Positions 2,099 through 62,678 of a stretch of 64,000 bases of DNA are shown piece by piece. Both the position numbers and the translations under genes were made by a program. Positions within the stretch are counted from its first letter, which is position 1; each line of letters opens with the position of its first letter. The notes below the pieces were generated by a model, which ran no database searches, had not been told where the DNA came from, and saw nothing but the letters and a program-made list of their open reading frames with translations. This DNA is from Paludibacteraceae bacterium. Its GTDB lineage: Bacteria; Bacteroidota; Bacteroidia; Bacteroidales; Paludibacteraceae. The DNA is taken from assembly GCA_017443145.1 (NCBI GenBank), contig JAFSPA010000009.1, positions 62,001 through 126,000 of the forward strand, written 5' to 3'.

Positions 2099-2614
2099 TT
2101 AATAGGAATAGAGGACGCATTTGACACGGTCGAAGTTGCGTGCGGCGAGGTCTTCGGGTTTGATGAGGAAGAAGAGCGAACCGCAATCGTAGAAGCGGAG
2201 GTTGATATCGTCATCTTCCTCGAGTTGGGCGAGGACTTGGTAGTCGGGATAGTCCTGCGCGAGTTCGTCGGTCCAGGTAGTGGGTTGACTTAGGACTTTG
2301 GAGTCGTAATCCTCCATCTTGCGTGGTTCGGGCACGGCGGAAGTGCCGTCGGCATAGCGGATTTCGTGTTCGTGGAGATTGGTTTGTGTGGGGCTGTAGA
2401 GCACTTTGTAGAAGTTGGTCGGCCATTCTCCGAGATTGCCGCCTTCGACATCGATGTCGCCGAAGAAATAGTCCAAGTCCGCAAATACATAGACGAGGCC
2501 TTCTCCAAGTTTGAACTGACAGATCAGGGTCATCGGATTATCCTCGCTGTTAGAGGGATATGTCATATTTTCGGGCATAGTAGCAAAGCCCCACCAGTGC
2601 TCAATCATATGCAT
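2099..2614 (-). CDS. YwqG/DUF1963-like protein
   Basis: The product is a 171-residue acidic soluble protein with the traits of the DUF1963/YwqG family: an early phrase on food-like reading of protein surface (NPMTLICQFKLGEG), a central YVFADLDYFFGD strand region and a C-terminal FYDCGSLFFLIKPEDL. The frame is open up to 2998, but a Bacteroidetes promoter at 2632-2663 lies inside that extension and the added residues are translated tandem repeats. I therefore place the start at the ATG at 2614 (a second ATG lies at 2608). It is the first gene of a minus-strand operon with the Sel1 protein. The biochemical role of the family is not known. Confidence 0.7.
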   Translation of the reverse strand: MHMIEHWWGFATMPENMTYPSNSEDNPMTLICQFKLGEGLVYVFADLDYFFGDIDVEGGNLGEWPTNFYKVLYSPTQTNLHEHEIRYADGTSAVPEPRKMEDYDSKVLSQPTTWTDELAQDYPDYQVLAQLEEDDDINLRFYDCGSLFFLIKPEDLAARNFDRVKCVLYSY

Positions 2615-2631: not shown

Positions 2632-2663
2632 CAAAGGTACGACTTTTTTTTGGAATATGCAAA
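2632..2663 (-). promoter_or_regulatory. Bacteroidetes sigma-70 promoter for the YwqG-like operon
   Basis: On the minus strand a -33 TTTG (2660-2663) and a -7 TACCTTTG (2632-2639) are separated by exactly 20 bases and followed by GCCGC. The ATG at 2614 lies about 18 bases beyond the -7 box. Confidence 0.75.
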
Positions 2664-2746: not shown

Positions 2747-2845
2747 GTGTGACCGTCGTGTGACCTTCGAACCACCGTCGTTCGACTGTCGTTCCACCAT
2801 CGTTCGACCTTCGGGTGACCTTCGGGTGACCTTCGGGCGACCTAC
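2747..2845. repeat. Degenerate 11-bp tandem array, 9 units
   Basis: Nine consecutive 11-base units cover this stretch, for example GTGTGACCGTC, GTGTGACCTTC, GTTCGACTGTC, GTTCGACCTTC and two identical GGGTGACCTTC. Most match a loose consensus G-[TG]-[TG]-[TC]-[GC]-[AC]-C-[CT]-[TAG]-[TA]-C. The spacer between the helicase stop (3003) and the YwqG-like start (2614) holds this array, the 15-bp array next to it and the promoter at 2632, and otherwise no gene. Confidence 0.75.
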
Positions 2846-14779: not shown

Positions 14780-14981
14780 TATATTCCTGCTGCCTGTATA
14801 TTTCTACAGATACTGTATCTCGCCACTTACACCTCCTTCGTGTCGATACACCCCGACATGTAGCCAGTACATGGTCGAAGCGGTACAGAAATACGGTATC
14901 TTCAAAGGTACATGGCTAGGCATTAAACGAATCCTACGCTGCAATCCCTGGGGAGGCAGCGGATATGACCCGGTCCCATAA
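14760..14981 (+). CDS. yidD: Membrane protein insertion efficiency factor
   Basis: A 73-residue YidD protein that aids YidC/Sec-dependent membrane insertion. It has an N-terminal amphipathic/hydrophobic segment ([19 protein letters not shown]), then the conserved Cys-rich core [31 protein letters not shown] and a C-terminal GYDPVP. Length and motifs are standard. The start overlaps the rnpA end by 20 bases. Confidence 0.93.
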
Positions 14982-14990
14982 CGATTTAAC

Positions 14991-15054
14991 AATTTAACGT
15001 TTTAACAATTTAACGTTTTAACAATTTAACGTTCTAACAATTTAACGTTTACAA
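14991..15054. repeat. 16-bp (8+8) tandem repeat, 4 units
   Basis: Four units of AATTTAACGTTTTAAC follow in tandem between yidD and trmD; the third has one substitution and the fourth diverges at its end. Each unit is two related 8-mers (AATTTAAC and GTTTTAAC). No promoter boxes are visible, so trmD is probably read from upstream. Confidence 0.75.
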
Positions 15055-15064
15055 AGTAAACTCT

Positions 15065-15781
15065 ATGCGCATCGATATCATCACAGCTTGCCCGGAATTA
15101 CTTGAGTCACCTCTCAACCACTCCATCATCCAACGAGCCAAAGACAAAGGACTCGCTGAAATCTATGTGCATAACCTCCGCGATTATACCCTCGACAAAC
15201 ATCGCAAAGTGGATGACTACGCTTTCGGGTTCTCGGCCGGTATGGTGCTGCAAATCGAACCCATCGACCGATGTATCTCAGCCCTCAAAGCCGAACGCGA
15301 CTACGACGAGATTATCTTCACCGCTCCAGACGGCGAACCCTTCACCCAGAAAGCCGCTAACTCCCTGTCACTCAAGCAGAATATCATCATCCTCTGCGGA
15401 CATTACAAAGGTGTAGATCAGCGCGTCCGCGACCATTTTATCACCAAAGAATATTCCATTGGCGACTTCGTTCTCACCGGAGGTGAGATGCCGGCTGCGA
15501 TGATGACTGATGCCATCGTACGCCTCATCCCCGGTGCACTCGGAGACGAGACTTCTGCACTCTCCGACAGTTTCCAAGATGGCCTGCTCGAGGCCGGCGT
15601 CTATACCCGCCCTGCTGAATACAAAGGCTGGAAAGTGCCCGAAATTCTGCTTTCCGGACACCAAGCCAAAATCGAAGAATGGCTCTACGAACAAAACCTC
15701 CAACACACACAAGAACGCCGTCCCGACCTCCTCGCTTCCACCCTAAGCGAAACTCCGGACTTGCTCAAACCCCAAAAATAA
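15065..15781 (+). CDS. trmD: tRNA (guanine-N1)-methyltransferase
   Basis: Methylates G37 of tRNAs with SAM to prevent frameshifting. The 238-residue SPOUT-fold protein begins [17 protein letters not shown] and shows the trefoil-knot motifs [48 protein letters not shown], and the catalytic Asp region [16 protein letters not shown] with [20 protein letters not shown]. Length is typical. It is not joined to rpsP/rimM/rplS here, unlike many bacteria. It lies 83 bases after yidD, behind a tandem repeat. Confidence 0.95.
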
Positions 15782-15811: not shown

Positions 15812-15855
15812 CAATGGCTGCTCAATGGCTGCTCAATGGCTGCTCAATGGTTCCT
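15812..15855. repeat. 11-bp tandem array, 4 units
   Basis: Three identical CAATGGCTGCT units and a diverged CAATGGTTCCT fill 44 bases downstream of trmD. The rest of the spacer (15782-16043) holds only the promoter at 15955. Confidence 0.8.
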
Positions 15856-15954
15856 CATCCCAAGACGAGTATAACTCAAACCTAACTTCAACCCAAGAGA
15901 TTCCCCCGACCGCGGTCTTTTTTTTCTGTTTTTTGCGAAAAAACTGCAAATTTA

Positions 15955-15986
15955 TTTGCACATGTGCAAAAAATGTTGTAATTTTG
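15955..15986 (+). promoter_or_regulatory. Promoter of the beta-helix protein gene
   Basis: TTTG (15955-15958), spacer 20, TAATTTTG (15979-15986), followed by GCGGC. The ATG is 57 bases beyond. Confidence 0.75.
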
Positions 15987-16043: not shown

Positions 16044-17531
16044 ATGAAAGTGAAAACTATCCTCTCCCTATTCGTTGCTATCGCAATGGTAGGTTCCATC
16101 CAAGCACAAGGACTGGGTGGCCTGATTCAACGTACTGCCACAAGCGCAGGCAACACGGCTATTGAAAAAGCGCGCATGGACGCCGGACACAACAACAGCA
16201 GCAACCAAACACAAACGCAAGCTGCTAAACCCGTAGGTAACGCAAAAATCTACTACGTTTCCAAAAACGGTTCCTCTCGTGGTGCAGACGGTCTGACTCC
16301 GGCTACTGCAAAGAAAGACATTCAAGCAGTTCTGAACATCATCAAAGAGAACGGTGACAACGGCGCTGTCGTTCGCGTAGGCGAAGGTAACTTCCTCGGC
16401 TACACTAACCAAGGTTACATTGAGATTTATAACTTCATCACCCTCGAAGGTGGCTGGAATGAAGATTTCACAGAGCGTGACCCGTTCAAATACATCACCC
16501 GTATTCAACCGGGCGAAGAGCAACGTGGTACGAATGGTTCAAAGGGTATGATTACCACCTCCCGCGACCTGGATGTAGCTACATCGAAGACTCCGCAAGG
16601 CACACTCATTATTGACGGTATCATGCTGGATATGGGTCTGGAGAACTTCTATAAACCCAATAACCCGAATGATGAGCGCAACGGTTGCCCATCGGCTGCG
16701 TTTGAGACCGGTCGTATGGAAGACGCTACTCCTCCGCAAATCCAACACCAGATTTTCCACTCCGACGGTGCTATTGCCGGTAACGTGATTATCCGTAACT
16801 GTCTCATCGCCAACAGTACCTATTTCGGTCTGCAATTCAACACTCGCTGCGGCGAAATCGAGATTTACAACAACGTAATCATCTCAAACCGTTACGGCGG
16901 CGTTCGCATCGACGGTTGGGACAAAGACGGTAAAGCTTCGCACGTGAACTTCCACCACAACACGGTTGCCTTCAGCTGGTGCCGCGACAAATACATGGAA
17001 GATATGGGTTATGGCTATGAGTTCATGAACAAAGTGAACGGTGATGTACACCACAACATCTTCATCGGTAACAACTACGCAGCTGTTGCACGTACCCGCA
17101 TCGATACCAAAGAGTACGAGGCTATCAAGAAAACCAACCTCTACGACAACTACTTCTTCCTCAACGCAGCTGACCTGCAACTCCCGTCCAGAGGTGGAGG
17201 TAAATGGACCAATATCAAATGCTCCGATATCGAAGATATGGTTGATGAGCAGACTCTTCCGAAGGCAGAGAACAACAAAGAGCTGCCTGGCGATGCTCCT
17301 GTGCTCAAAGCAATGGACCAAGAATACCTCAAAGCATTTGCTAACCTGAAAGTTATCTCTGAGTCGCAAAACTTCAACCCGAACTCCGCTTCCAACCAGT
17401 TCCGTCAAGCTATGGGTATGAACATGCAAGGTTCTGAAACCCGTCGCGTTTCGATGTATGGAAACCGCTATAACTTCGACAAAGCAATGCAACTCTTCGG
17501 AGCTATGCCTGGTTACGGCGCACAGAAGTAA
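16044..17531 (+). CDS. Secreted right-handed parallel beta-helix protein
   Basis: The 495-residue protein has a signal peptide (MKVKTILSLFVAIAMVGSIQ, cleavage near AQG), a linker rich in Gln/Asn/Ser, then from about residue 70 a pectate-lyase-like beta-helix: IYYVSKNGSSRGADGLTPATA is the DUF1565-type entry (core VSKNGSSRGADGLTP), followed by coils such as VIIRNCLIANS, IEIYNNVIISNRYGGVRI and VNFHHNTVAFSW. Such folds bind or cleave polysaccharide; no catalytic residue can be assigned. The C-terminal ~90 residues leave the helix. It has its own promoter and no obvious sorting tail. Confidence 0.82.
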   Translation: MKVKTILSLFVAIAMVGSIQAQGLGGLIQRTATSAGNTAIEKARMDAGHNNSSNQTQTQAAKPVGNAKIYYVSKNGSSRGADGLTPATAKKDIQAVLNIIKENGDNGAVVRVGEGNFLGYTNQGYIEIYNFITLEGGWNEDFTERDPFKYITRIQPGEEQRGTNGSKGMITTSRDLDVATSKTPQGTLIIDGIMLDMGLENFYKPNNPNDERNGCPSAAFETGRMEDATPPQIQHQIFHSDGAIAGNVIIRNCLIANSTYFGLQFNTRCGEIEIYNNVIISNRYGGVRIDGWDKDGKASHVNFHHNTVAFSWCRDKYMEDMGYGYEFMNKVNGDVHHNIFIGNNYAAVARTRIDTKEYEAIKKTNLYDNYFFLNAADLQLPSRGGGKWTNIKCSDIEDMVDEQTLPKAENNKELPGDAPVLKAMDQEYLKAFANLKVISESQNFNPNSASNQFRQAMGMNMQGSETRRVSMYGNRYNFDKAMQLFGAMPGYGAQK

Positions 17532-25777: not shown

Positions 25778-25821
25778 ATACAAGTAGGATACAAGTAAGA
25801 TGCAAGCACAATACAAGTTTT
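25778..25821. repeat. 11-bp tandem array, 4 units
   Basis: Units ATACAAGTAGG, ATACAAGTAAG, ATGCAAGCACA and ATACAAGTTTT lie in tandem between the ATPase promoter and the end of the giant gene. In the same 275-base spacer ATTCTCAAAGT/ATTCTCAAAGT occurs twice at about 25709-25741 (25 bases apart). No gene is seen in it. Confidence 0.75.
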
Positions 25822-25928: not shown

Positions 25929-28900
25929 TTATTCTACTCTTGCACCTTGGGCATTGAAGAGGTGGCCGTTATGCTCGATATATAGTACACCGTTGATGAA
26001 GAGCTTACGGGCGGGAACTTTAGATTCTACATTATTTACACCCGTTGAGAACTTCTCTGTCTTCGAATACAAAACATTATAAGTTGCGTTGCCCGTGACT
26101 ATATCTGTAGGCTCAATATTTTCAAGACCTTCATAGGTATAGATATACTTTTCATCCTCGAAAGTATCGCCGCCTAAAGCCTCTTTCGCTTGATTTATCA
26201 ACGACGAAATCAATGTGCCATAAGGAACGTTCTCTATCGTATGATGCTTTGTTGGGTCATCTTTGACTACAAAGGTGATAGTATAGGTATTAAGCACGGC
26301 AGAATAAGTGGCAATATAGTCCGCGTTAACGGTAGCCACAACGATAGTTGGCGTCCAACCGTTGAAGGTGTACGTATATTGCGCATTTTCGAACTTGGTA
26401 GGTGTTGCACCAGTATATACAGGTAGTGTATTTTCCAGAACTTGCCCGCTTTGTAGCACAGTATTATCCCAGTTAAGGAAACGGATGGTGTAATAGACAG
26501 GGTCTGGAGTGACAGGTTTGGCAGTGGCGGTAAATTGTGCCGTGTAGTCTGCGTTAGCGGTAGCGGCTACGATGGTCGGCGACCACCCCTTGAACTTGTA
26601 CGTGTAGTTGCTGTCTTCCGGCCGCGTGGGTGTTGCGCCTGTGTATGTAGGAAGCGTGTTCTCCAGAACCTGACTGTTTTGCAACTCTGCACCGTTGTAA
26701 TTCAAGAAGCGGATGGTGTAATAGGTCGGCTGTGGAGGAGTCACACCTGCACATACTGCGTCCAATTTAAGGTTCCTAATAATCCAACTGCCATTCTTTT
26801 CGGAATAATAAGAGAATCCAAAAACAGTATTCTTTCCAACAAATCTTAGTGGCACATTAATTATTACATCAGTAAAAGTCGAAGAACTAAACTTTGATAT
26901 AGCCAATTCCTCCCATGTATCATCATCCGTATTTTGAAAATTCGCACAAATCCATAGTGTTAAATTATCAGTTGATGTCGTTGCATAATGGCTAAATGAC
27001 AACGTTACAGATGACATATTGGTCAGATTTTTAGCTGGAGTATATAGAAAGTCTTCACCTTGCCCAGATGCAGCGACTCCGCTTGGGACATTGTGCCATT
27101 TACTACCTTCTGCTATCATCTCACCCAAACTACTTTCGCCAGGCTGTAACCAGAGAGTGTGAATATCCTCGCAATCGCCTGTTGGTGCCTCTGTTACAGA
27201 ATATTGTGCTGTGTAAGTTGCATTTTCGATGACGGGAGCCAATGCTGGTATCCAACCTGTAAACGTGTATGAATAAATGCCATTAGACGGTTTAGTCGGA
27301 TTCTCATGAGTAGGCATTGCCCCGTAAGGCAGTTCTACTTGGTCAATGACAGAGCCATCGTCGTCCTTGAATGTAATGGTATATGTTTTAGGCTCAAAAA
27401 CAGCAGTAAAGGTGGTATCCTGCGTGATGGTTACGGAATGCGAGTTGCTTGTACTTCCATCGGACCACTGAACAAACTTATAACCTGTATTTGGAGTCGC
27501 GTATAATGATACGTTGTCCAAATATTCAGCCTGTGACGGATAGGTCACTGAACCTCGTTCCGAATCATACTCTACCTGAACGGAATAGATATTCTTGGCA
27601 AACCAAGCCCAATAGTTCTTATCCTCCGTTACCGTAATGGTTCGTGGGTTATCTGTATTGTCATCCCCCAGCCATTTTACAAAATGATAGCCATAATTTG
27701 GCTCTGCTGAGATTACTGTCGTGCTTCCGTGTTCATATTCTCCTGCACCGATTAGTGTACCCCATGTTTGCTGCGCCTGATACGTATAGAGATTTATCGT
27801 GTATACGTTTATTGCAAACTCAGCGGTAAAAGTAGTATCTTGCGTTATGATAACGGTGCGTGGGTTATTGCGATCTCCATCAGACCATTGCGAGAAGTGG
27901 AATCCCACAGAGGGGACAGGTGTTAGTGTAATTTCTTGCATATGCTCCGCTTGGGAAGGCCCCGAAATACCGCAAGAATCAGGGTTGGTGAGTTTCGTAA
28001 TTGTATAGACATTCTTTGCGAAATTAGCTATATAATTCTTATTCTCGGTTACCGTAATAGTACGCGGGTTATCGGTATTGCCGTCATTCCATTTTTCAAA
28101 ATGATAGCCCTCAATAGGAGTAGCGGAAATTTCTATTTGCTCTAAGTACAATACAGACGTATCGCCTTCTGTTGTTCCGCAACCGGAGGGGGTCGACCCT
28201 GTTGTAATGGTATAAGTGTTCTTTGCGAACTCTGCTACAAACGCGGTATCTTGCAAGAATGAGATAGTACGCGGGTTATCGGTATTGCCGTCGTTCCATT
28301 GCTCGAAGTGATAACCTTGGTATGCTATGGCAGTTATCTTTACCAATTCACCTTCCGTATATTGACCGGCACCAAGGACTTCTCCCATATTTGCATCATT
28401 GACAGAAAGAGAGAGAGTTCCAAATCCAATAACGATTATTGTCCGTTCTGCATAAACGCCGGAGCCGTCAATGGCAGTAGCGCGTACGCGCACTATACCG
28501 CCCTTCCCTTCAGGATTTGCGACAAGCAAACCATTGTTATAGATGGTGGCAAGTTCTTTACCGCTGACGATAGACCAGCGCACCTGTTTATAAGTTGCAT
28601 GACACGGGGTAATCTCCACATAGAGGTGCAGTTTCATTTGCGACGGAGAAAGCGTATAAGTCTTCTCCATAGATAATATCGTCATGTGGGTAGCTAAAGT
28701 CGTTTGTACAGAAGCGGATGACTCCATCACATTACTTTGTCCTGTCCGCAGGATACTATTTTTCTTCGCTTTGCGTGCAGGAATATTGGCGGCAGTACTG
28801 CCATATACCCATTCGTTTGTAAAGGCTTCATTGGAATATTTGATAGCGTAGTACCCCTCTTCGATAGGACTATTGTCTGTATAAGTACACTCATCACCAG

Positions 28901-31900
28901 CTACCGTAGCAAGGACTTGCATGTTAGACGAAGAAGAACCTCTCATTATTTGATAGGAGTCCACTACATCACCTTGATAATAAGTCCAGTAGAGGTTGAT
29001 TGCGCCATTTAGACCATAGTTAGTCTGCAAGTGCGGTGTCTTGTGGGCAGTACTCTTCGGGCTTTCGCCGCCATAGATAGAGGTGTATGCGATGCAGTAG
29101 GCATTGCTCTTGACGGACGGGTCAGAAGCATTGTCTATCCATTGTCCTACGGAAACAGGCACTTTGGCTTGCATTACCCAGTTATTGGTTTTTCCTTCCT
29201 CCTTGTAAACAATCATACTGTCTATATATGCGGGCAGGTTAGCCGGAGTGTCCCATGTAATCATGTTCTTTCCTGTTGCAGCATCCACCATTATCAATGA
29301 GATTGCAGGTGCATTACCGCTGCCTATAATCAGCGTTGAGTCGCGGAAAGTATTCACTTCGCCGCAGACCGCATCATTCTGGTAGAACTCGACCCAGCCC
29401 ATCTCGAAGTCATCGCCAGATGTACTCTTGAAACAGATTCGGAAGATGCGAGAGTCTTTTTTAGGCAATGAATACCCCGTGCAGTTATCGGAAGTGCGAA
29501 TTGCCAGATTAGCGATATTCTCATAGTTAGCAGGCAGCGTAACCTCGATCCAGGAATTGCTCAGTACCCTTTCAGGAAGAGCGAGAGTGAGGTCTTTCTG
29601 AGCGTTCTGCACATAGATAACGCGGGAATAAGTATTGCCGCTTAGCGTGGCAGTAACATTTTTTATTCCTTCCGTTGTCCAATAGACGGAGTATGTCCCG
29701 TCTGCGTTTTGCGATGCTGTACCGCCGTCAAAGTTCCATGAAATGCCGCCGTTGTTTGTCCCTGTATATCCCACAGTTACGGGGGCGTTCAGACAGGTTT
29801 GTGCCGGCATCGAAATCAGCACTTGCGGTTGTACCGTAAACGTGTAGGCGGCAGACATAGGGCTATGCGCGTTCCAAAGGTCGATGGACTGGATCTGGAA
29901 CTCGTATGTCTGACCGCCTGTCAGCTTGTCAATAGGGATGAAGTAACTGGTTCCGTGCGGATAGTAATAGCCCGGCACGATATTCGCTTCGTCGTATAGA
30001 CCGTTCATCGGAGAAACGATAAAGGCATTGTCTGTTCCTACAGCTACTCCTTGTTTCTTGACGGAGATATTATATCGCATCTGTGCCGCTGGTGTCTCTT
30101 TGTCTTTAGCGGCATCCCAATAGAGATAGATGCCATCGTTTTCTTGCACGGCACGTAAGTTGGTTGGCACGGAAGGAACTTCATTGGCGATATTGCTTTT
30201 GAAAAGATACTCCGTTAAATCAGGCACACCATCGCCATTCAAATCAACAAATGGATAGGTATCTATATCATAGATTTCAGTATATATGCTTCCGTCAATA
30301 TACTGGCATGTAACCGTATAATCATCGTGCATATAAATAATAAATGCATCATTGTGGGCGGCGGTCACGTGACCCGATTGTTCTACCGATATAAAATCAA
30401 GATACCCATTGTTGTCAAAATCAGGACCAACTTTTAAATACTTGGATTCTAATTCATTTAGTTCGAATTCACTCGGCAGATATATTTCCACAGTTTCGAT
30501 ACCTGCTTCTGTGTTTAGGTGCAAGAGAATAGTATGTTTATTCTTAATCGAGTAAGTGTCTGCCCTACCGTCATTATCGAAATCATAAGTTTCGGCTGGC
30601 TGCTCGGGGAATGTGTATGTGTCATTTGAAAACTCTACATCAAAATCCTCCATATTATACATGACAGAACCTTTAGAAGTTTGAGTTACCACATCCGGCA
30701 GACCATCCATATTCACATCAGCAAAAATACATTCACCAACCGGACCTGTTACACTTAGGTCTGCATTGTATGTCTTTGCCAATTTGATAAATGATCCGTT
30801 ACCTCGTCCTTTATAAAATCCTTCTGTTCTTTTCCATGTTCCCAATCGATTGGTTTTATAGCCGATGCCGTCCATTACGCCATCCATGTCCATATCGAAA
30901 TAAGACAAGGTAAGATATTCATCTCCTTCGGGATAATTCGGGTTTTTCACAATTTGAAGGGGAAGCACACTCACGTCTTGTGTTACAAGCGGAGACTTGC
31001 GCCCATCTGATGATGTTATTTGTAGAGAAATGTGTTTGTCTCCTTGAGTCGTATAGATAATAGTATATGTCTGCCCGGTCTGTGAGAGAACAACAGCACT
31101 ATCTCCAAAATTCCAGTTGTACGTACTACTCTCATCTATAGCACCGGCAAACTGCACCGTTATTGTGTCCGCTGTGGTAATATTATGATTGGATATATTG
31201 AATCCAAAAGGCACAAGAGCATGGTGGTAGACCACTTCATCACTCCACTCTCCGCCTAATCCGTTCGGGTCAATAGCTTGCACTGAAATATAATAATCAC
31301 CCTCTCTCCATGTGGATACATTTACTCTTTGATTAAGATAGGCTCCTACATTTGCTCCCCATAAACTGCGCTGTGTGCCGTCTGCGTTAGCGGCGGCGAA
31401 CCACATATCGCAAGCACCGGGAGTAGATCCTATACGAATAGAATATTCCAAATCCAATGAAGATGTCTGCGCATCACTACCTCTATCCCAATCGATATTC
31501 AGCATTGCTTTCTCTGCATCCACACTTATGCGTGGCTGGGACATCTTTGCAGGCGGAGTATTGATTGCTGCACATGGGAAATGTGCCAATGTATAAGGAC
31601 CATATTCTCCATTAGTATAGTAAAAATCGTTAACACCGTTATTATCAAAATCTCCATAGACAAATAATGGAGTATAATAATAGTTAGAATTTAGACTATT
31701 TACCACGAATGGATCATCCATGGTGACCTTAAACCGGTTGTTATAACGGATAAGATAATAACTGCCATTGTGAATCTTATCCGCCGTATAATTATCTAAA
31801 GAATCACGAGCAATGATTTCGTATTTTCCGTCATTATCCACATCCCGGCAATCCAAGAATTGGAAGTGTTTTACCGGATCATCAAATGCATTCTCAATTT

Positions 31901-34900
31901 TCTTAAAGGTATTATTTCCGTCATTGCGCCAAAATACCAAGAATGCATATCCCGATGTTGAGTTCCAGTCAAACGGAAGCAGAATGTCTACATCACCATC
32001 ATTGTCAAAATCATAACACCACACATTGGATATACTCATATTCTGCATCAATGTTTTGGTTGTCACATTGCCATTTCCCTCATAAATCTGCAAAGAGACC
32101 GTTTTGGTGGTTTTGTTATATATCACATAATCTAATATACCATCCCCATTTATATCTTTGGGTGTAACACTTCCAGGGAATGAGCCTTTTACATAAGTAT
32201 TGTCTCCCAAGTTATAAAGTACTACTCCCGTGGAAGATGATAATAAATCCATCAGACCATTTCTATCCAAGTCTATCGCCATATCTATAAAGTCAAAGCC
32301 GGTTGAATTATAATCATCCGGATCTCCGGGTGCTATAAACATAGTATTACGCAGGCTTATCTCGTCCCAAGTGGAAGTAATAAAGAAGAGTTCCTCAGAA
32401 ACAGTCTCCCACTTCTGATAGATGGCACTATCTATAGCAGCCGTATCAGACAAAACATTCAGTTCGGATTTGAGATAAGAGCCGTCCCATTGACGGAGTT
32501 GGAAATAATGTTTATTATTCTCATATATATAGAAGTCTTGCAATCCGTCTAAATTGGCATCCAGTTGGAAGATGTGGTTGTATTTTTTAGGTGCACCATC
32601 GTATTTCCCGGGAGCAAGGAATGATAAATCGTGTCGGTTATACCCCCCATTCCCGTCGGACTCATAAATAATGCTATCCAAATGCAAATCGATAATAGAG
32701 TCATTGTTTATATTGCAGGCATTCCAATGTTTGGATGTGTAGGCTATATTGGAGATGAGTGTATCTATCGTTGTACCATACAGATTATTTACAAGAATAT
32801 TATAATTATTTTGCGATATGATAGCATCCATCTGCCCAATCCCTTTTGTGTCATATAGGTTCGTTTTGATAGCAGCACTTGGAATGTTTGTGACCACCGT
32901 CATCGGATTTTGGAAGATGACTTCTTTGGCGGGTATATATTTGATGTTATTGGCTGTGATTGTATCACAAACATTGCCAAACACCAATGTATCAAGAACA
33001 ACTGGAAAGATGTTGCTCTTACTACTCACTTCATATTTATGGGTGTTCCATTCTACATAACTCAAACTATTACATCCTGAGAAAGCATAATTTCCGATAC
33101 TCGTAATACTGTTAGGAATAGTTACAGAAGTCAAACTGCTGCAACCATAGAAAGCATAAGCCCCTATTTTTGTGGCACCTTCCGGAATGATCAAATCTGT
33201 CACTAATACACCATTTAAACTCAAGTTATGAATATAGCTTAATGGGTTTTGACCATAACTTCCAAAATTGATTGCACACCATGATGCCAAGTCGGTTATG
33301 TTCAATGCCGTTAAGCCGTTGCAACCCTTAAAAGCATCCACTCCAATACTTGTAACACTGTTAGGAATAGTTACAGAAGTCAAACTGCTGCAACCATAGA
33401 AAGCATAATTCCCTATCTTAGTAACACCATCCGGAATAATCAAATCAGTAATTAATACATCATTGACATATAAATTTTGTATGTAACTTAATGGATTGCT
33501 ACCAGAAGATGCAAAATTAATTGCACACCAAGCAGCTATGTCAGAAATGTTTAACCTTGTTAACTTAGTACAATTAGAGAAAGCATTATTTCCAATGCTT
33601 GTGACACTATTAGGGATAGTTACTGAGGTTAGTTGTGTCATTCCGTAGCACAAATAAGCAGGTATGTGTTCTACTTGATCTCCAAAAACGACGGAAGTTA
33701 CAGGTGGTACATAATCATCTAAATCATAAGATGAGTCGAACGGAGATGCCGAAAAATTACCACTATTCTTTGCGTTCCATACAATGGAAGTTAGATTTGT
33801 ACATTTAGCAAACGCTGTCTGCCTGATACTTGTTACGCCATAGGGGATAGTAAGTGATGTTATCGGCAATCCATAACACAAAAAATCTGGAATACTCTTA
33901 ACATTTTCACCAAAGGTAAAAGTGGTGATATTATTGCAACCCCAAAATGGTCCATTAGGCGTGGTTTTGTAAGTATATTTGCAGTTCTGTGCGTTCCATA
34001 CCACAGAGGTCAAGCCAATACAACTTTCAAAAGCTTTCTCACCAATGTTTGTAACGCTCTCGGGTATAGTTATAGAAGTCAAACCACTACAACCCTTAAA
34101 AGCAGATTCTCCAATAGTTGTAACGCTACCGGGAATAATCACTTCTCCTTCTGCTGCTTGAGAACAAGCAAGGAGTGTTGTCTTTGAGGCATCTGCATAC
34201 ACAAGCCATCCATCCACATAACTATTTACACTCTTTGCTCCCCATGGAGAACCGGTAGCAGTACCACTATACAAAATATTAGGAACACTAGAGAACGCAT
34301 ATTCACCAATACTTGTGACGCTGTTGGGAATAGTAACCGAACTTAATTTACTGCATCCTGAAAATGCCCTAACTCCGATGCTGGTGACGCTATTGGGAAT
34401 AACTATTTCGCCTTCTGCCACTCTTGAGCAGGCAAGTAGAGTTGTCTTTGAAGCATCTGCATACACAAGCCATCCATCCACATACCCGTTCACGCTCAAT
34501 GCTCCCCATGGCGTACCGGTTGCCGTACCATGATATTCAATATTAGGTACATTATAAAAAGCATAATCTCCTTTTATAATACTTACACTATTAGGAATAG
34601 TGATTGACGTCAAACCACCGCAATTATAGAAAGCATAATCTCCAATGCTTGTGACGCTATTGGGAATCGTCACTGAGGTCAAACCGCTGCAACCATAGAA
34701 AGCATAATCACCAATGCTTGTGACGCTATTGGGAATCGTCACTGAGGTCAAATTGCTGCAATCACGAAAAGTAGAACCTCCGATGTTGGTGATGCTATTG
34801 GAAATACTCACTGAGGTCAAATTAGTGCAACCAAGGAAAGCTCTATCTCCAATGCTGGTGACGCTATTAGGAATAGTTACTGAGATTAAATCGGAACAAC

Positions 34901-35498
34901 CATAAAAGGCAGATTTTCCAATGCTGGTAACGCTATTGGGAATAGTCACAGAGGTCAAACCACTACAATTTTGGAAAGTTCCTTGCTCAATGCTTGAAAC
35001 ACTATTAGGGATAGTGACTGAGGTTAAACTGCGGCAAGCAGAGAAAGCGCTATAGCTAATACTTGTAACGCTATTTGGAATAGTCATGGATGTCAAATGG
35101 GTACAACCGCTGAAAGTTTCCGATTCGATTGTTGTGATTGTATTGGGAATAGTCACAGAGGTCAAACCAAAGCATTTTTCGAAAGCACTATATCCAATAC
35201 TTGTAACACTATTTGGAATTACCACTGAGACCAAACTACTACATTCATTGAAAGTATTAGGTCCAATACTTGTCACATTGTAAGTTTGCCCTTCATAGGT
35301 TACCGTAGAGGGAATGGATAAGTTTCCTGAGTACTCGTTAGAATAAGAATAATAGTAAGTACCACGATAAGTTACCGTTGCTGTTTGTGTACTACTGTTA
35401 AAATTGTACCAAATACCATCGACTTGAATGTCGGAAGCGAATAAAATTCCAGTACTTGCCATCATCGCAAGCAGAAGTGTAAATAATTTAGTTTTCAT
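25929..35498 (-). CDS. Giant BspA-type leucine-rich repeat mosaic surface protein
   Basis: The product has 3189 residues with signal peptide (MKTKLFTLLLAMMASTGILF). Layout from N to C: about 35 residues 30-815, LRR_5/BspA repeats of ~23 residues (core LTSVTIPNSVTSIG); 970-1310, FG-GAP/VCBS-like Asp-rich loops (DLDRNGLMDLL, DINGDGILDYV, DFDNDGDVDIL); 1430-1515, a PKD-like domain (YNWNFGDSAVV); 1520-1760, more Asp loops; 1775-2240, Fn3-like and PKD-like units; 2255-2357, a Big_2-like Ig domain; 2357-2705, five InlB B-like repeats (GYHFEKWNDGNTDNPRTI); then Flg_new-like repeats around a jelly-roll-like domain (2773-2916). The last ~30 residues end LYIEHNGHLFNAQGARVE, a likely export/anchoring tail. 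It is probably an adhesin; ligands are unknown. It is last in a three-gene cluster, 5 bases after the membrane protein gene. Confidence 0.9.
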   Translation of the reverse strand: MKTKLFTLLLAMMASTGILFASDIQVDGIWYNFNSSTQTATVTYRGTYYYSYSNEYSGNLSIPSTVTYEGQTYNVTSIGPNTFNECSSLVSVVIPNSVTSIGYSAFEKCFGLTSVTIPNTITTIESETFSGCTHLTSMTIPNSVTSISYSAFSACRSLTSVTIPNSVSSIEQGTFQNCSGLTSVTIPNSVTSIGKSAFYGCSDLISVTIPNSVTSIGDRAFLGCTNLTSVSISNSITNIGGSTFRDCSNLTSVTIPNSVTSIGDYAFYGCSGLTSVTIPNSVTSIGDYAFYNCGGLTSITIPNSVSIIKGDYAFYNVPNIEYHGTATGTPWGALSVNGYVDGWLVYADASKTTLLACSRVAEGEIVIPNSVTSIGVRAFSGCSKLSSVTIPNSVTSIGEYAFSSVPNILYSGTATGSPWGAKSVNSYVDGWLVYADASKTTLLACSQAAEGEVIIPGSVTTIGESAFKGCSGLTSITIPESVTNIGEKAFESCIGLTSVVWNAQNCKYTYKTTPNGPFWGCNNITTFTFGENVKSIPDFLCYGLPITSLTIPYGVTSIRQTAFAKCTNLTSIVWNAKNSGNFSASPFDSSYDLDDYVPPVTSVVFGDQVEHIPAYLCYGMTQLTSVTIPNSVTSIGNNAFSNCTKLTRLNISDIAAWCAINFASSGSNPLSYIQNLYVNDVLITDLIIPDGVTKIGNYAFYGCSSLTSVTIPNSVTSIGVDAFKGCNGLTALNITDLASWCAINFGSYGQNPLSYIHNLSLNGVLVTDLIIPEGATKIGAYAFYGCSSLTSVTIPNSITSIGNYAFSGCNSLSYVEWNTHKYEVSSKSNIFPVVLDTLVFGNVCDTITANNIKYIPAKEVIFQNPMTVVTNIPSAAIKTNLYDTKGIGQMDAIISQNNYNILVNNLYGTTIDTLISNIAYTSKHWNACNINNDSIIDLHLDSIIYESDGNGGYNRHDLSFLAPGKYDGAPKKYNHIFQLDANLDGLQDFYIYENNKHYFQLRQWDGSYLKSELNVLSDTAAIDSAIYQKWETVSEELFFITSTWDEISLRNTMFIAPGDPDDYNSTGFDFIDMAIDLDRNGLMDLLSSSTGVVLYNLGDNTYVKGSFPGSVTPKDINGDGILDYVIYNKTTKTVSLQIYEGNGNVTTKTLMQNMSISNVWCYDFDNDGDVDILLPFDWNSTSGYAFLVFWRNDGNNTFKKIENAFDDPVKHFQFLDCRDVDNDGKYEIIARDSLDNYTADKIHNGSYYLIRYNNRFKVTMDDPFVVNSLNSNYYYTPLFVYGDFDNNGVNDFYYTNGEYGPYTLAHFPCAAINTPPAKMSQPRISVDAEKAMLNIDWDRGSDAQTSSLDLEYSIRIGSTPGACDMWFAAANADGTQRSLWGANVGAYLNQRVNVSTWREGDYYISVQAIDPNGLGGEWSDEVVYHHALVPFGFNISNHNITTADTITVQFAGAIDESSTYNWNFGDSAVVLSQTGQTYTIIYTTQGDKHISLQITSSDGRKSPLVTQDVSVLPLQIVKNPNYPEGDEYLTLSYFDMDMDGVMDGIGYKTNRLGTWKRTEGFYKGRGNGSFIKLAKTYNADLSVTGPVGECIFADVNMDGLPDVVTQTSKGSVMYNMEDFDVEFSNDTYTFPEQPAETYDFDNDGRADTYSIKNKHTILLHLNTEAGIETVEIYLPSEFELNELESKYLKVGPDFDNNGYLDFISVEQSGHVTAAHNDAFIIYMHDDYTVTCQYIDGSIYTEIYDIDTYPFVDLNGDGVPDLTEYLFKSNIANEVPSVPTNLRAVQENDGIYLYWDAAKDKETPAAQMRYNISVKKQGVAVGTDNAFIVSPMNGLYDEANIVPGYYYPHGTSYFIPIDKLTGGQTYEFQIQSIDLWNAHSPMSAAYTFTVQPQVLISMPAQTCLNAPVTVGYTGTNNGGISWNFDGGTASQNADGTYSVYWTTEGIKNVTATLSGNTYSRVIYVQNAQKDLTLALPERVLSNSWIEVTLPANYENIANLAIRTSDNCTGYSLPKKDSRIFRICFKSTSGDDFEMGWVEFYQNDAVCGEVNTFRDSTLIIGSGNAPAISLIMVDAATGKNMITWDTPANLPAYIDSMIVYKEEGKTNNWVMQAKVPVSVGQWIDNASDPSVKSNAYCIAYTSIYGGESPKSTAHKTPHLQTNYGLNGAINLYWTYYQGDVVDSYQIMRGSSSSNMQVLATVAGDECTYTDNSPIEEGYYAIKYSNEAFTNEWVYGSTAANIPARKAKKNSILRTGQSNVMESSASVQTTLATHMTILSMEKTYTLSPSQMKLHLYVEITPCHATYKQVRWSIVSGKELATIYNNGLLVANPEGKGGIVRVRATAIDGSGVYAERTIIVIGFGTLSLSVNDANMGEVLGAGQYTEGELVKITAIAYQGYHFEQWNDGNTDNPRTISFLQDTAFVAEFAKNTYTITTGSTPSGCGTTEGDTSVLYLEQIEISATPIEGYHFEKWNDGNTDNPRTITVTENKNYIANFAKNVYTITKLTNPDSCGISGPSQAEHMQEITLTPVPSVGFHFSQWSDGDRNNPRTVIITQDTTFTAEFAINVYTINLYTYQAQQTWGTLIGAGEYEHGSTTVISAEPNYGYHFVKWLGDDNTDNPRTITVTEDKNYWAWFAKNIYSVQVEYDSERGSVTYPSQAEYLDNVSLYATPNTGYKFVQWSDGSTSNSHSVTITQDTTFTAVFEPKTYTITFKDDDGSVIDQVELPYGAMPTHENPTKPSNGIYSYTFTGWIPALAPVIENATYTAQYSVTEAPTGDCEDIHTLWLQPGESSLGEMIAEGSKWHNVPSGVAASGQGEDFLYTPAKNLTNMSSVTLSFSHYATTSTDNLTLWICANFQNTDDDTWEELAISKFSSSTFTDVIINVPLRFVGKNTVFGFSYYSEKNGSWIIRNLKLDAVCAGVTPPQPTYYTIRFLNYNGAELQNSQVLENTLPTYTGATPTRPEDSNYTYKFKGWSPTIVAATANADYTAQFTATAKPVTPDPVYYTIRFLNWDNTVLQSGQVLENTLPVYTGATPTKFENAQYTYTFNGWTPTIVVATVNADYIATYSAVLNTYTITFVVKDDPTKHHTIENVPYGTLISSLINQAKEALGGDTFEDEKYIYTYEGLENIEPTDIVTGNATYNVLYSKTEKFSTGVNNVESKVPARKLFINGVLYIEHNGHLFNAQGARVE
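33060..35290. repeat. 69-bp coding repeats of the BspA domain
   Basis: The leucine-rich region is built of 69-base units (23 codons). Neighbouring units share long exact stretches, for instance around 34640-34750 where the same ~45 bases recur. Two larger blocks are duplicated as well: about 34150-34290 and 34400-34540 (the YVDGWLVYADASKTTLLACS module), and about 33180-33330 and 33420-33560. This invites slippage and recombination. Confidence 0.85.
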
Positions 35499-36588: not shown

Positions 36589-36671
36589 TGCATTTACTAT
36601 TAATAGTTTTGCCTACTCTTTATCGGATTTTCGGCATCTTCCGTATAATTATTGTTTGCACGTATACATAG

Positions 36672-48830: not shown

Positions 48831-48901
48831 AGTGGCGTAAGAGTGGCGTAAGAGTGGCTGCAAAGGTAGCGTATCCCTTGCGTATCCTATGCGTATCCTT
48901 T
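48831..48901. repeat. Two 11-bp tandem arrays
   Basis: AGTGGCGTAAG occurs twice (48831-48852) with a diverged third copy; then GCGTATCCCTT, GCGTATCCTAT and GCGTATCCTTT (48869-48901). Both blocks have the 11-base period. Confidence 0.72.
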
Positions 48902-48913
48902 GCTAAAAATTAA

Positions 48914-62581: not shown

Positions 62582-62611
62582 CTATCAGTTAAGTTCCGAT
62601 GGTCTCAGGAT

Positions 62612-62666
62612 AATAGTGCAGTAATAGTCCAATAATAGTCCAGTAATAGTCCAATAATAGTCCAAT
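62612..62666. repeat. 11-bp tandem array, 5 units
   Basis: Units AATAGTGCAGT, AATAGTCCAAT, AATAGTCCAGT, AATAGTCCAAT and AATAGTCCAAT lie in tandem just after the rpoD stop (62679, minus). The array separates tRNA-Met from the convergent rpoD. Confidence 0.82.
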
Positions 62667-62678
62667 AATTACGGGATG

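Follow-up and report, generated by a model that had tools for sequence, protein, structure and literature searches.

The window (the whole stretch of 64,000 nucleotides of the Paludibacteraceae genome that was analysed) contains six tandem arrays with units of 11 bases. The first, array 1, lies on the minus strand upstream of a gene with a DUF1963 domain. The arrays and their associated features are given below, with promoter-like boxes called from TAnnTTTG, which we take as the promoter consensus.

2099..2614, minus strand: gene downstream of array 1, with a DUF1963 domain (Pfam E 1.3e-15)
2632..2639, minus strand: promoter-like box TACCTTTG, called by sequence, with array 1 on one side and the gene at 2099 on the other
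2747..2845, minus strand: array 1, about nine 11-bp units of group B/E, solo copy (Tandem Repeats Finder)
15812..15855, plus strand: array with unit CAATGGCTGCT, found at two loci in the genome sample (Tandem Repeats Finder 15812-15850, 3.5 copies)
15868..15875, plus strand: tail AGTATAAC, also near arrays of two other unit groups
15979..15986, plus strand: promoter-like box TAATTTTG, called by sequence, with array 15812 before it and the gene at 16044 after it
25778..25821, strand not applicable: weak array with unit ATACAAGTAAG, single in the sample (Tandem Repeats Finder 25778-25818, 3.7 copies, 76%)
48831..48858, strand not applicable: array with unit AGTGGCGTAAG, 2.5 copies, a stop codon 5 bp before it, single in the family count
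48869..48903, strand not applicable: array with unit GCGTATCCTTT, 3.2 copies, four loci in the sample
62610..62669, strand not applicable: array with unit AATAATAGTCC, 5.5 copies, three loci in the sample

The six spacer arrays described in the initial annotation were all recovered by Tandem Repeats Finder, and all period-11 arrays of the window are intergenic, with genes called by our own hexamer scorer. An array was found at every locus given there, with somewhat lower copy numbers at some of them. For array 1, Tandem Repeats Finder gave 2746-2843 with 8.9 copies and a 78% match, plus 2805-2848; in minus-strand reading, its units are CGAAGGTCACC, GAACGACGGTC and variants. Array and flank together resemble another locus of the same genome (L010) at 79% across 240 bp. 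The genes on both sides of array 1 lie on the same strand as the array, its last unit is 143 bp from the box TACCTTTG, and the DUF1963 gene beyond is outside the small-protein family described below. A sigma-70-type gene has its stop codon 9 bp away from the array at 62610..62669. A gene of the small-protein family was found behind none of the window arrays, and the search for small-gene remnants beside them gave nothing convincing, the best hit (E 0.004, 13 residues at 26277) being inside a large gene.

Several other features were recorded in the window. A period-16 array (TAACGTTTTAACAATT, 4.5 copies) occupies 14979-15050, ahead of the gene at 15065, and a match to the DUF805b cis-regulatory RNA lies at 36610-36644 on the minus strand. 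The long ORF at 25929-35498, presumably reminiscent of leucine-rich surface proteins, has degenerate repeats of 69 bp and multiples at 33078-35097. An AT-rich promoter block (TTTGCATAT, an A-run and TAnnTTTG) is found at 2620-2690 and at many places in the genome as a dispersed similarity; in one similarity search, most of the 42 genome matches were this block containing TTTGCATAT.

Period and unit groups across the genome

A lag scan treating every period alike was carried out over 1.246 of the 1.900 Mb of the genome (66%), with spacer limits that are approximate because the gene calls come from the hexamer scorer. Intergenic arrays numbered 0, 23, 6, 0, and 1 at periods 6 to 10; 47, 0, 0, 5, and 0 at periods 11 to 15; and 2, 0, 1, 0, and 3 at periods 16 to 20, with a further 36 at period 22 and 15 at period 33. 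The even spread from 6 to 20 that, by the initial annotation, would have spoken against its proposal was not seen, with 47 arrays at 11 vs. 0, 1, 0, and 0 at 9, 10, 12, and 13. A second, smaller peak at period 7 was seen in the lag scan and in an exact-match count of the first 846 kb, which gave 28 arrays at period 11, 20 at 7, 8 at 14, 17 at 22, 8 at 33, and 0 to 3 at every remaining period from 4 to 44. Period-11 arrays were found outside called genes in 47 of 49 cases and inside them in two. The 290 spacers of at least 80 bp contained 43 such arrays, compared with none in each of ten order-1 resamples, and 41 of the 290 carried one. The arrays are real, and their period of 11 is not due to chance.

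For the grouping of units (at most two mismatches, single linkage), the window arrays at 25778, 48831, and 48869, which are below the lag-scan threshold, were added by hand to the 47 to give 50 arrays. These fell into 15 groups of 13, 12, 4, 4, 3, 3, 2, and 2 members plus seven singles, so that 43 of the 50 belong to eight multi-member groups, one of the groups of two being a single spacer (L009). Unit pairs within one mismatch numbered 66 vs. 0.24 in shuffled units, and those within two mismatches 111 vs. 3.4. Array 1 belongs to the largest group (13 arrays), which merges the groups B and E, and the window arrays are drawn from different unit groups. The earlier view that the units are unrelated between loci does not hold across the genome, where units recur, and the view that they form no dispersed family is not supported. 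The conserved stretch around related arrays is mostly short, comprising the array and tens of bases per side, at times more. The tail AGTATAAC, a motif picked after being seen, lies near six of the 50 arrays of three groups, including that at 15812, vs. 0.24 expected.

A length held at 11 over many unit sequences, as initially suggested, was seen in this genome and in its congeners. Neighbouring units within an array are often identical. As a measure of possible selection against indels, the indel/mismatch ratio at period 11 was 0.04 in the genome vs. 0.08 in arrays of 7-8 bp, and 0.12 in congeners vs. 0.04 in arrays of 7-8 bp.

Two further properties of the units were considered and set aside. 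Minor-groove reading, taken from complementary changes (A/T, C/G), rested on a raw count of 95 vs. 43 other transversions, which became 29 vs. 21 (controls 19 vs. 20, p 0.40) with related copies counted once. Bending by phased A-tracts was rejected for groups B and E, the units of which have no A-tract.

At one threshold, the genome has 51 arrays per 1.246 Mb; nine congeners have 21 in 0.8 Mb, and 80 named loci around the sigma gene, mostly from Bacteroidales, have 4 in 1.34 Mb. Among 19 congener units compared, seven were within one mismatch of a unit of the genome. Group A units in tandem were found in three of 36 congeners and in none of 24 other genomes of the order, and the tandem patterns of groups A and B were absent from viral contigs. 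Five orthologous loci in 29 congeners held 13 arrays besides those of the genome itself, one of which had the unit group of the own array there. A conserved array position is not claimed because about 13 arrays would be expected anywhere by a rough density-based estimate.

Arrays, small-protein genes and shared leaders

Two kinds of small proteins recur behind the arrays, one of approximately 166 aa (L019:4693-5193) and one of approximately 160 aa (L013:13171-13653). Both lack a Pfam match and reach only chance-level NCBIfam scores. Among the family members scanned, no match rose above the cut-off in Pfam, NCBIfam, or PHROGs, including any to a transposase; searches with these collections and Foldseek revealed neither a known DNA-binding domain nor a clear fold match. 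In the genome, an array is present upstream of all five subfamily 1 loci (two truncated), the three longest copies of subfamily 2, and three more distant members (L009, L025, and L038); 11 of the 23 profile matches have an array and 12 do not. The array-less matches comprise the whole of a near-identical 104-aa subgroup (eight genes), and the rest are partial or divergent. In this subgroup, 7-bp tandem repeats of the CGTTTAG or CGGTTAT type occur up to approximately 35 bp past the stop codon of four of the eight genes (L426, L428, L430, and L433), and the period-7 peak may come in part from these repeats.

In congeners, the 400 bp upstream were scanned for arrays at 19 subfamily 1 loci (21 fetched, two dropped for want of upstream DNA) and at 28 subfamily 2 loci (29 of 102 matches fetched, mostly the best per genome, and one dropped); an array is present at 13 and 25 of these, respectively, 38 of 47 in total. 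Four control genes, read as glyA, rimP, secDF, and metallo-beta-lactamase-like, of which only SecDF has a Pfam match above cut-off, had an array at that distance in 1, 1, 1, and 7 of 29 congener loci each (10/116); the presence of an array at the own copy was the reason for choosing them, a choice that makes the control rate, if anything, too high. The difference (38/47 vs. 10/116) has a Fisher p of 2e-19, which is only a guide, as the loci are mutually related, and of 2e-18 without the L402 array, which is T-rich and doubtful. Period-11 arrays are tied to an uncharacterised small-protein gene family. A second SecDF-like gene was seen at G000:C6:5725-6717, with 83% identity over the part searched.

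The family profile (21 members) matched only this genome among 149 of the order (0/148 others), one of which is from another genus of the same family. Within the genus, with the genome itself counted, subfamily 1 is present in 16 of 41 genomes and subfamily 2 in 31 of 41. Arrays and gene family share this range, the arrays being denser in the genus and the genes absent from the 148 genomes elsewhere in the order.

The layout of gene-linked arrays is recurrent. In 27 of 49 gene-linked copies, a TAnnTTTG box lies at most 70 bp before the array, in 19 of these 13 to 29 bp before its start; the box is between array and start codon in two, and no box was found in the searched places in 20. With the promoter-like box directly ahead of the array in these 27 copies, the gene-linked arrays would be transcribed as leaders beginning near the transcription start. 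The core of the units differs by subfamily. In subfamily 1, GGTS occurs three or more times in 16 of 18 arrays, with CRWM ahead of the core, and GTKATT in 0 of 18; in subfamily 2, GTKATT occurs in 23 of 28 arrays, seven of 28 also satisfying the GGTS criterion. The core-motif matrices were anchored on the cores, with the remaining unit positions free, and common descent alone could account for the matching of motif and subfamily. All eight proteins checked carry a charge of +6 to +8 within their first 60 residues. The subfamily 1 model (pLDDT 84) has one beta hairpin and five helices; Foldseek gave no match for it, and a second look yielded middling scores only.

Taken together, the 11-bp period, the units that recur, the enrichment at the gene family, the subfamily-specific core, and a box that precedes the array in roughly half of the gene-linked copies lead us to favour, tentatively and somewhat short of an even chance, a reading in which recurring unit groups upstream of the small-protein family act in autoregulation. 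Each 11-bp unit would be one putative site, one helical turn long, for the encoded protein, and the proteins would line up head to tail along their own leader. Contact would most likely be made on DNA rather than RNA, and the bound protein would most likely repress its own promoter. The upstream enrichment, subfamily cores, box position, basic N-terminal part, shared range, and known readers of 11-bp repeats count for autoregulation. Against it count the searches that gave no known DNA-binding domain or clear fold match, the 12 of 23 own matches that are array-less, the 20 of 49 copies without a box, and the dual motif in seven of 28.

Most arrays are solo, a family gene, truncated copy, or remnant being found behind at most 11 of 50, and some of the solo ones share leader sequence with gene-linked arrays. 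For instance, the solo group A arrays at L036, L047, and L032 match the L365 leader over 50 nt at 92%, 46 nt at 91%, and 31 nt at 97%, respectively, and three further solo group A arrays match it over 21 to 25 nt. Two such cases were seen in group B: L262 shares 69 nt at 81% with the leader of L259, and L267 shares 31 nt at 90% with that of L019. At L024 (group A), the array comes with 60 nt at 98% of the L365 leader and a gene remnant. The tail of array 1 has matches of only 7-9 nt to gene-linked leaders, and a direct leader match was seen neither for array 1 beyond its own units nor for the other window arrays. Solo arrays, those of the window included, are most likely leader copies dispersed without the gene. 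In a separate case, L013 and L261 share 90% identity over 217 bp of upstream DNA, array included, their proteins being 45-50% identical, so that copying or retention of the leader seems to have been separate from that of the gene.

Groups A, B, and E together have 25 arrays. Of the 13 that lie in co-directional spacers, 12 are oriented with the next gene (p 0.003), and the remaining 12 arrays lie in divergent spacers; three of the 12 are gene-linked. A promoter-like box is found downstream of 17 of the 25, at distances of 122 to 406 bp, with no common helical phase between array and promoter in these 17. Promoters were called in 26 of 36 array-bearing spacers vs. 71 of 128 others, which is not significant (p 0.085), and the genes behind solo arrays have by reading no common function. 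Together with the rarity of arrays kept at orthologous loci, the lack of common function, of helical phase, of a significant promoter excess, and, with related copies counted once, of a minor-groove signal also counts against autoregulation.

The main rival to autoregulation, a serious one even though we hold it to be unlikely, is a copied or mobile module of array, leader, and small gene, in which the solo arrays would be derivatives that lack the gene and the role of the array would be in copying, not gene control. Comparable logic is known from RAYT genes with REP sequences and from MITEs. The copy number of the family (0 to 9 per congener), its stop-interrupted and truncated copies, and the leaders common to solo and gene-linked arrays (L365 with L036, L047, and L032; L259 with L262) are in line with such a module, as are the remnant at L024 and the single array of the own unit group among 13 at orthologous loci. 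Copying by itself leaves the fixed 11-bp step unexplained, however, and the family shows no transposase match; moreover, subfamily 2 protein is absent from the phage collection, and subfamily 1 from the plasmid collection and viral contigs.

Alternatively, the array could act as RNA, its units forming successive 11-nt sites within the 5' leader, read by the encoded protein or another factor to control translation. A role as RNA would fit the 27 of 49 gene-linked copies that have a promoter-like box ahead of the array and the 12 of 13 arrays in co-directional spacers that are oriented with the next gene. It is nevertheless rather improbable in our judgement: a step of 11 bp is natural for a turn of DNA, and many solo arrays (17 of 25) are upstream of a promoter-like box. 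RNA hairpins were dismissed as the reason for the arrays, as 12 folds of six array regions on both strands were no more stable than shuffles (z -0.94 to 2.19), a result with which unstructured sites are still compatible.

The initial annotation had left it between selection and slippage which of them fixes the length. The fixed length of 11 stands; slippage alone leaves the gene link, subfamily cores, and promoter position unexplained. Replication slippage combined with a bias of repair or replication in the genus toward steps of 11 (and 7), with functionless arrays, draws on the second peak at 7, the frequent identity of adjacent units, and indel/mismatch ratios in the ordinary range (0.04 in the genome and 0.12 in congeners). 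The same units nevertheless recur at many loci, arrays are linked to one gene family, leaders are common to solo and gene-linked arrays, and 47 of 49 arrays lie outside genes; we regard this explanation as quite improbable. Plain slippage repeats with locus-independent units were rejected on the 66 pairs within one mismatch vs. 0.24 expected.

Extending the autoregulatory reading, it is possible, and held with more reserve than that reading itself, that a small basic protein family so far seen only in the genus has radiated into protein-array pairs, each reading its own 11-letter code at one unit per turn. Stacking would fix the length and leave the letters free, and array copies would be scattered as potential control sites. 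If the pairs are real, they form a naturally occurring set of matched proteins and sites with constant spacing and changing specificity, in which the way a binding protein acquires a new target could be followed in the sequences and put to a direct test. The reading would also assign a role to a gene family that has no match in Pfam, NCBIfam, or PHROGs, and would account for the arrays carried by about one in seven longer spacers (41/290, in the sampled part of the genome).

Comparison with known systems

The initial annotation knew of no named element of this kind, and none was recognised in the literature searched on 11-bp intergenic tandem or leader repeats in bacteria, which included PMC4060949 and PMC4679880; subscription journals were mostly outside this search, and the lack of a match to any named element for 11-bp leader arrays tied to a small-protein family is no proof of novelty.

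REP sequences are palindromic hairpins, and RAYT is a transposase gene. The likeness to the present system is a small gene with a repeat beside it and gene-less repeat copies across the genome. This identification was rejected, as the arrays here are direct repeats without unusual folding (six regions vs. shuffles), and the linked gene has no transposase match in Pfam, NCBIfam, or PHROGs.

Heptamer direct repeats (TAACTGA) are described in Beggiatoaceae and some Bacteroidetes (PMC4679880) and share with our arrays the abundance of intergenic tandem repeats, the fixed unit length, and an orientation bias towards the gene. They were rejected as the same element, with one 7-bp sequence there vs. 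11-bp units of many sequences here.

Head-to-tail repeats of 11 bp are read by several proteins, including CarH (PMC9304148), SARP (PMC10936776), PhoP (PMC9019756), and ParR of R1 (PMC9426499). No model of CarH, SARP, PhoP, or ParR matched the small-protein family in Pfam and NCBIfam scans. Direct repeats of 11 bp read by OmpR-type winged helices make up the PHO boxes of Streptomyces PhoP and the SARP/AfsR boxes (PMC9019756 and PMC10936776). The array 1 unit has GGTCACC, one base off the PHO core GTTCACC, and the other groups are unlike it. The genes behind group B arrays, unlike those of PHO boxes, are by reading not phosphate genes, and the afs box differs in having two repeats.

The parC site of plasmid R1 consists of 11-bp direct repeats bound by ParR and lies beside the ParR gene (PMC9426499). 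There, as here, an 11-bp direct-repeat array adjoins the gene of a repeat-binding protein, which in our case is a candidate role; parC, however, is a single plasmid centromere, whereas the present arrays have many chromosomal copies.

The operators of the MerR-type CarH comprise three to five tandem 11-bp repeats, nnnnTnnACAn, overlapping the promoter of carotenoid genes (PMC9304148). The CarH motif was rejected for our arrays, as by reading no TnnACA occurs on either strand in the consensus units of group A (GTATGTGATTA) and group B (GGTCACCCGAA and GGTCGAACGAC). The likeness lies in head-to-tail 11-bp direct repeats at a promoter, which in CarH are read by one oligomer along one DNA face. 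The present arrays differ in having many unit groups and up to nine or more units, and in standing ahead of an orphan gene family.
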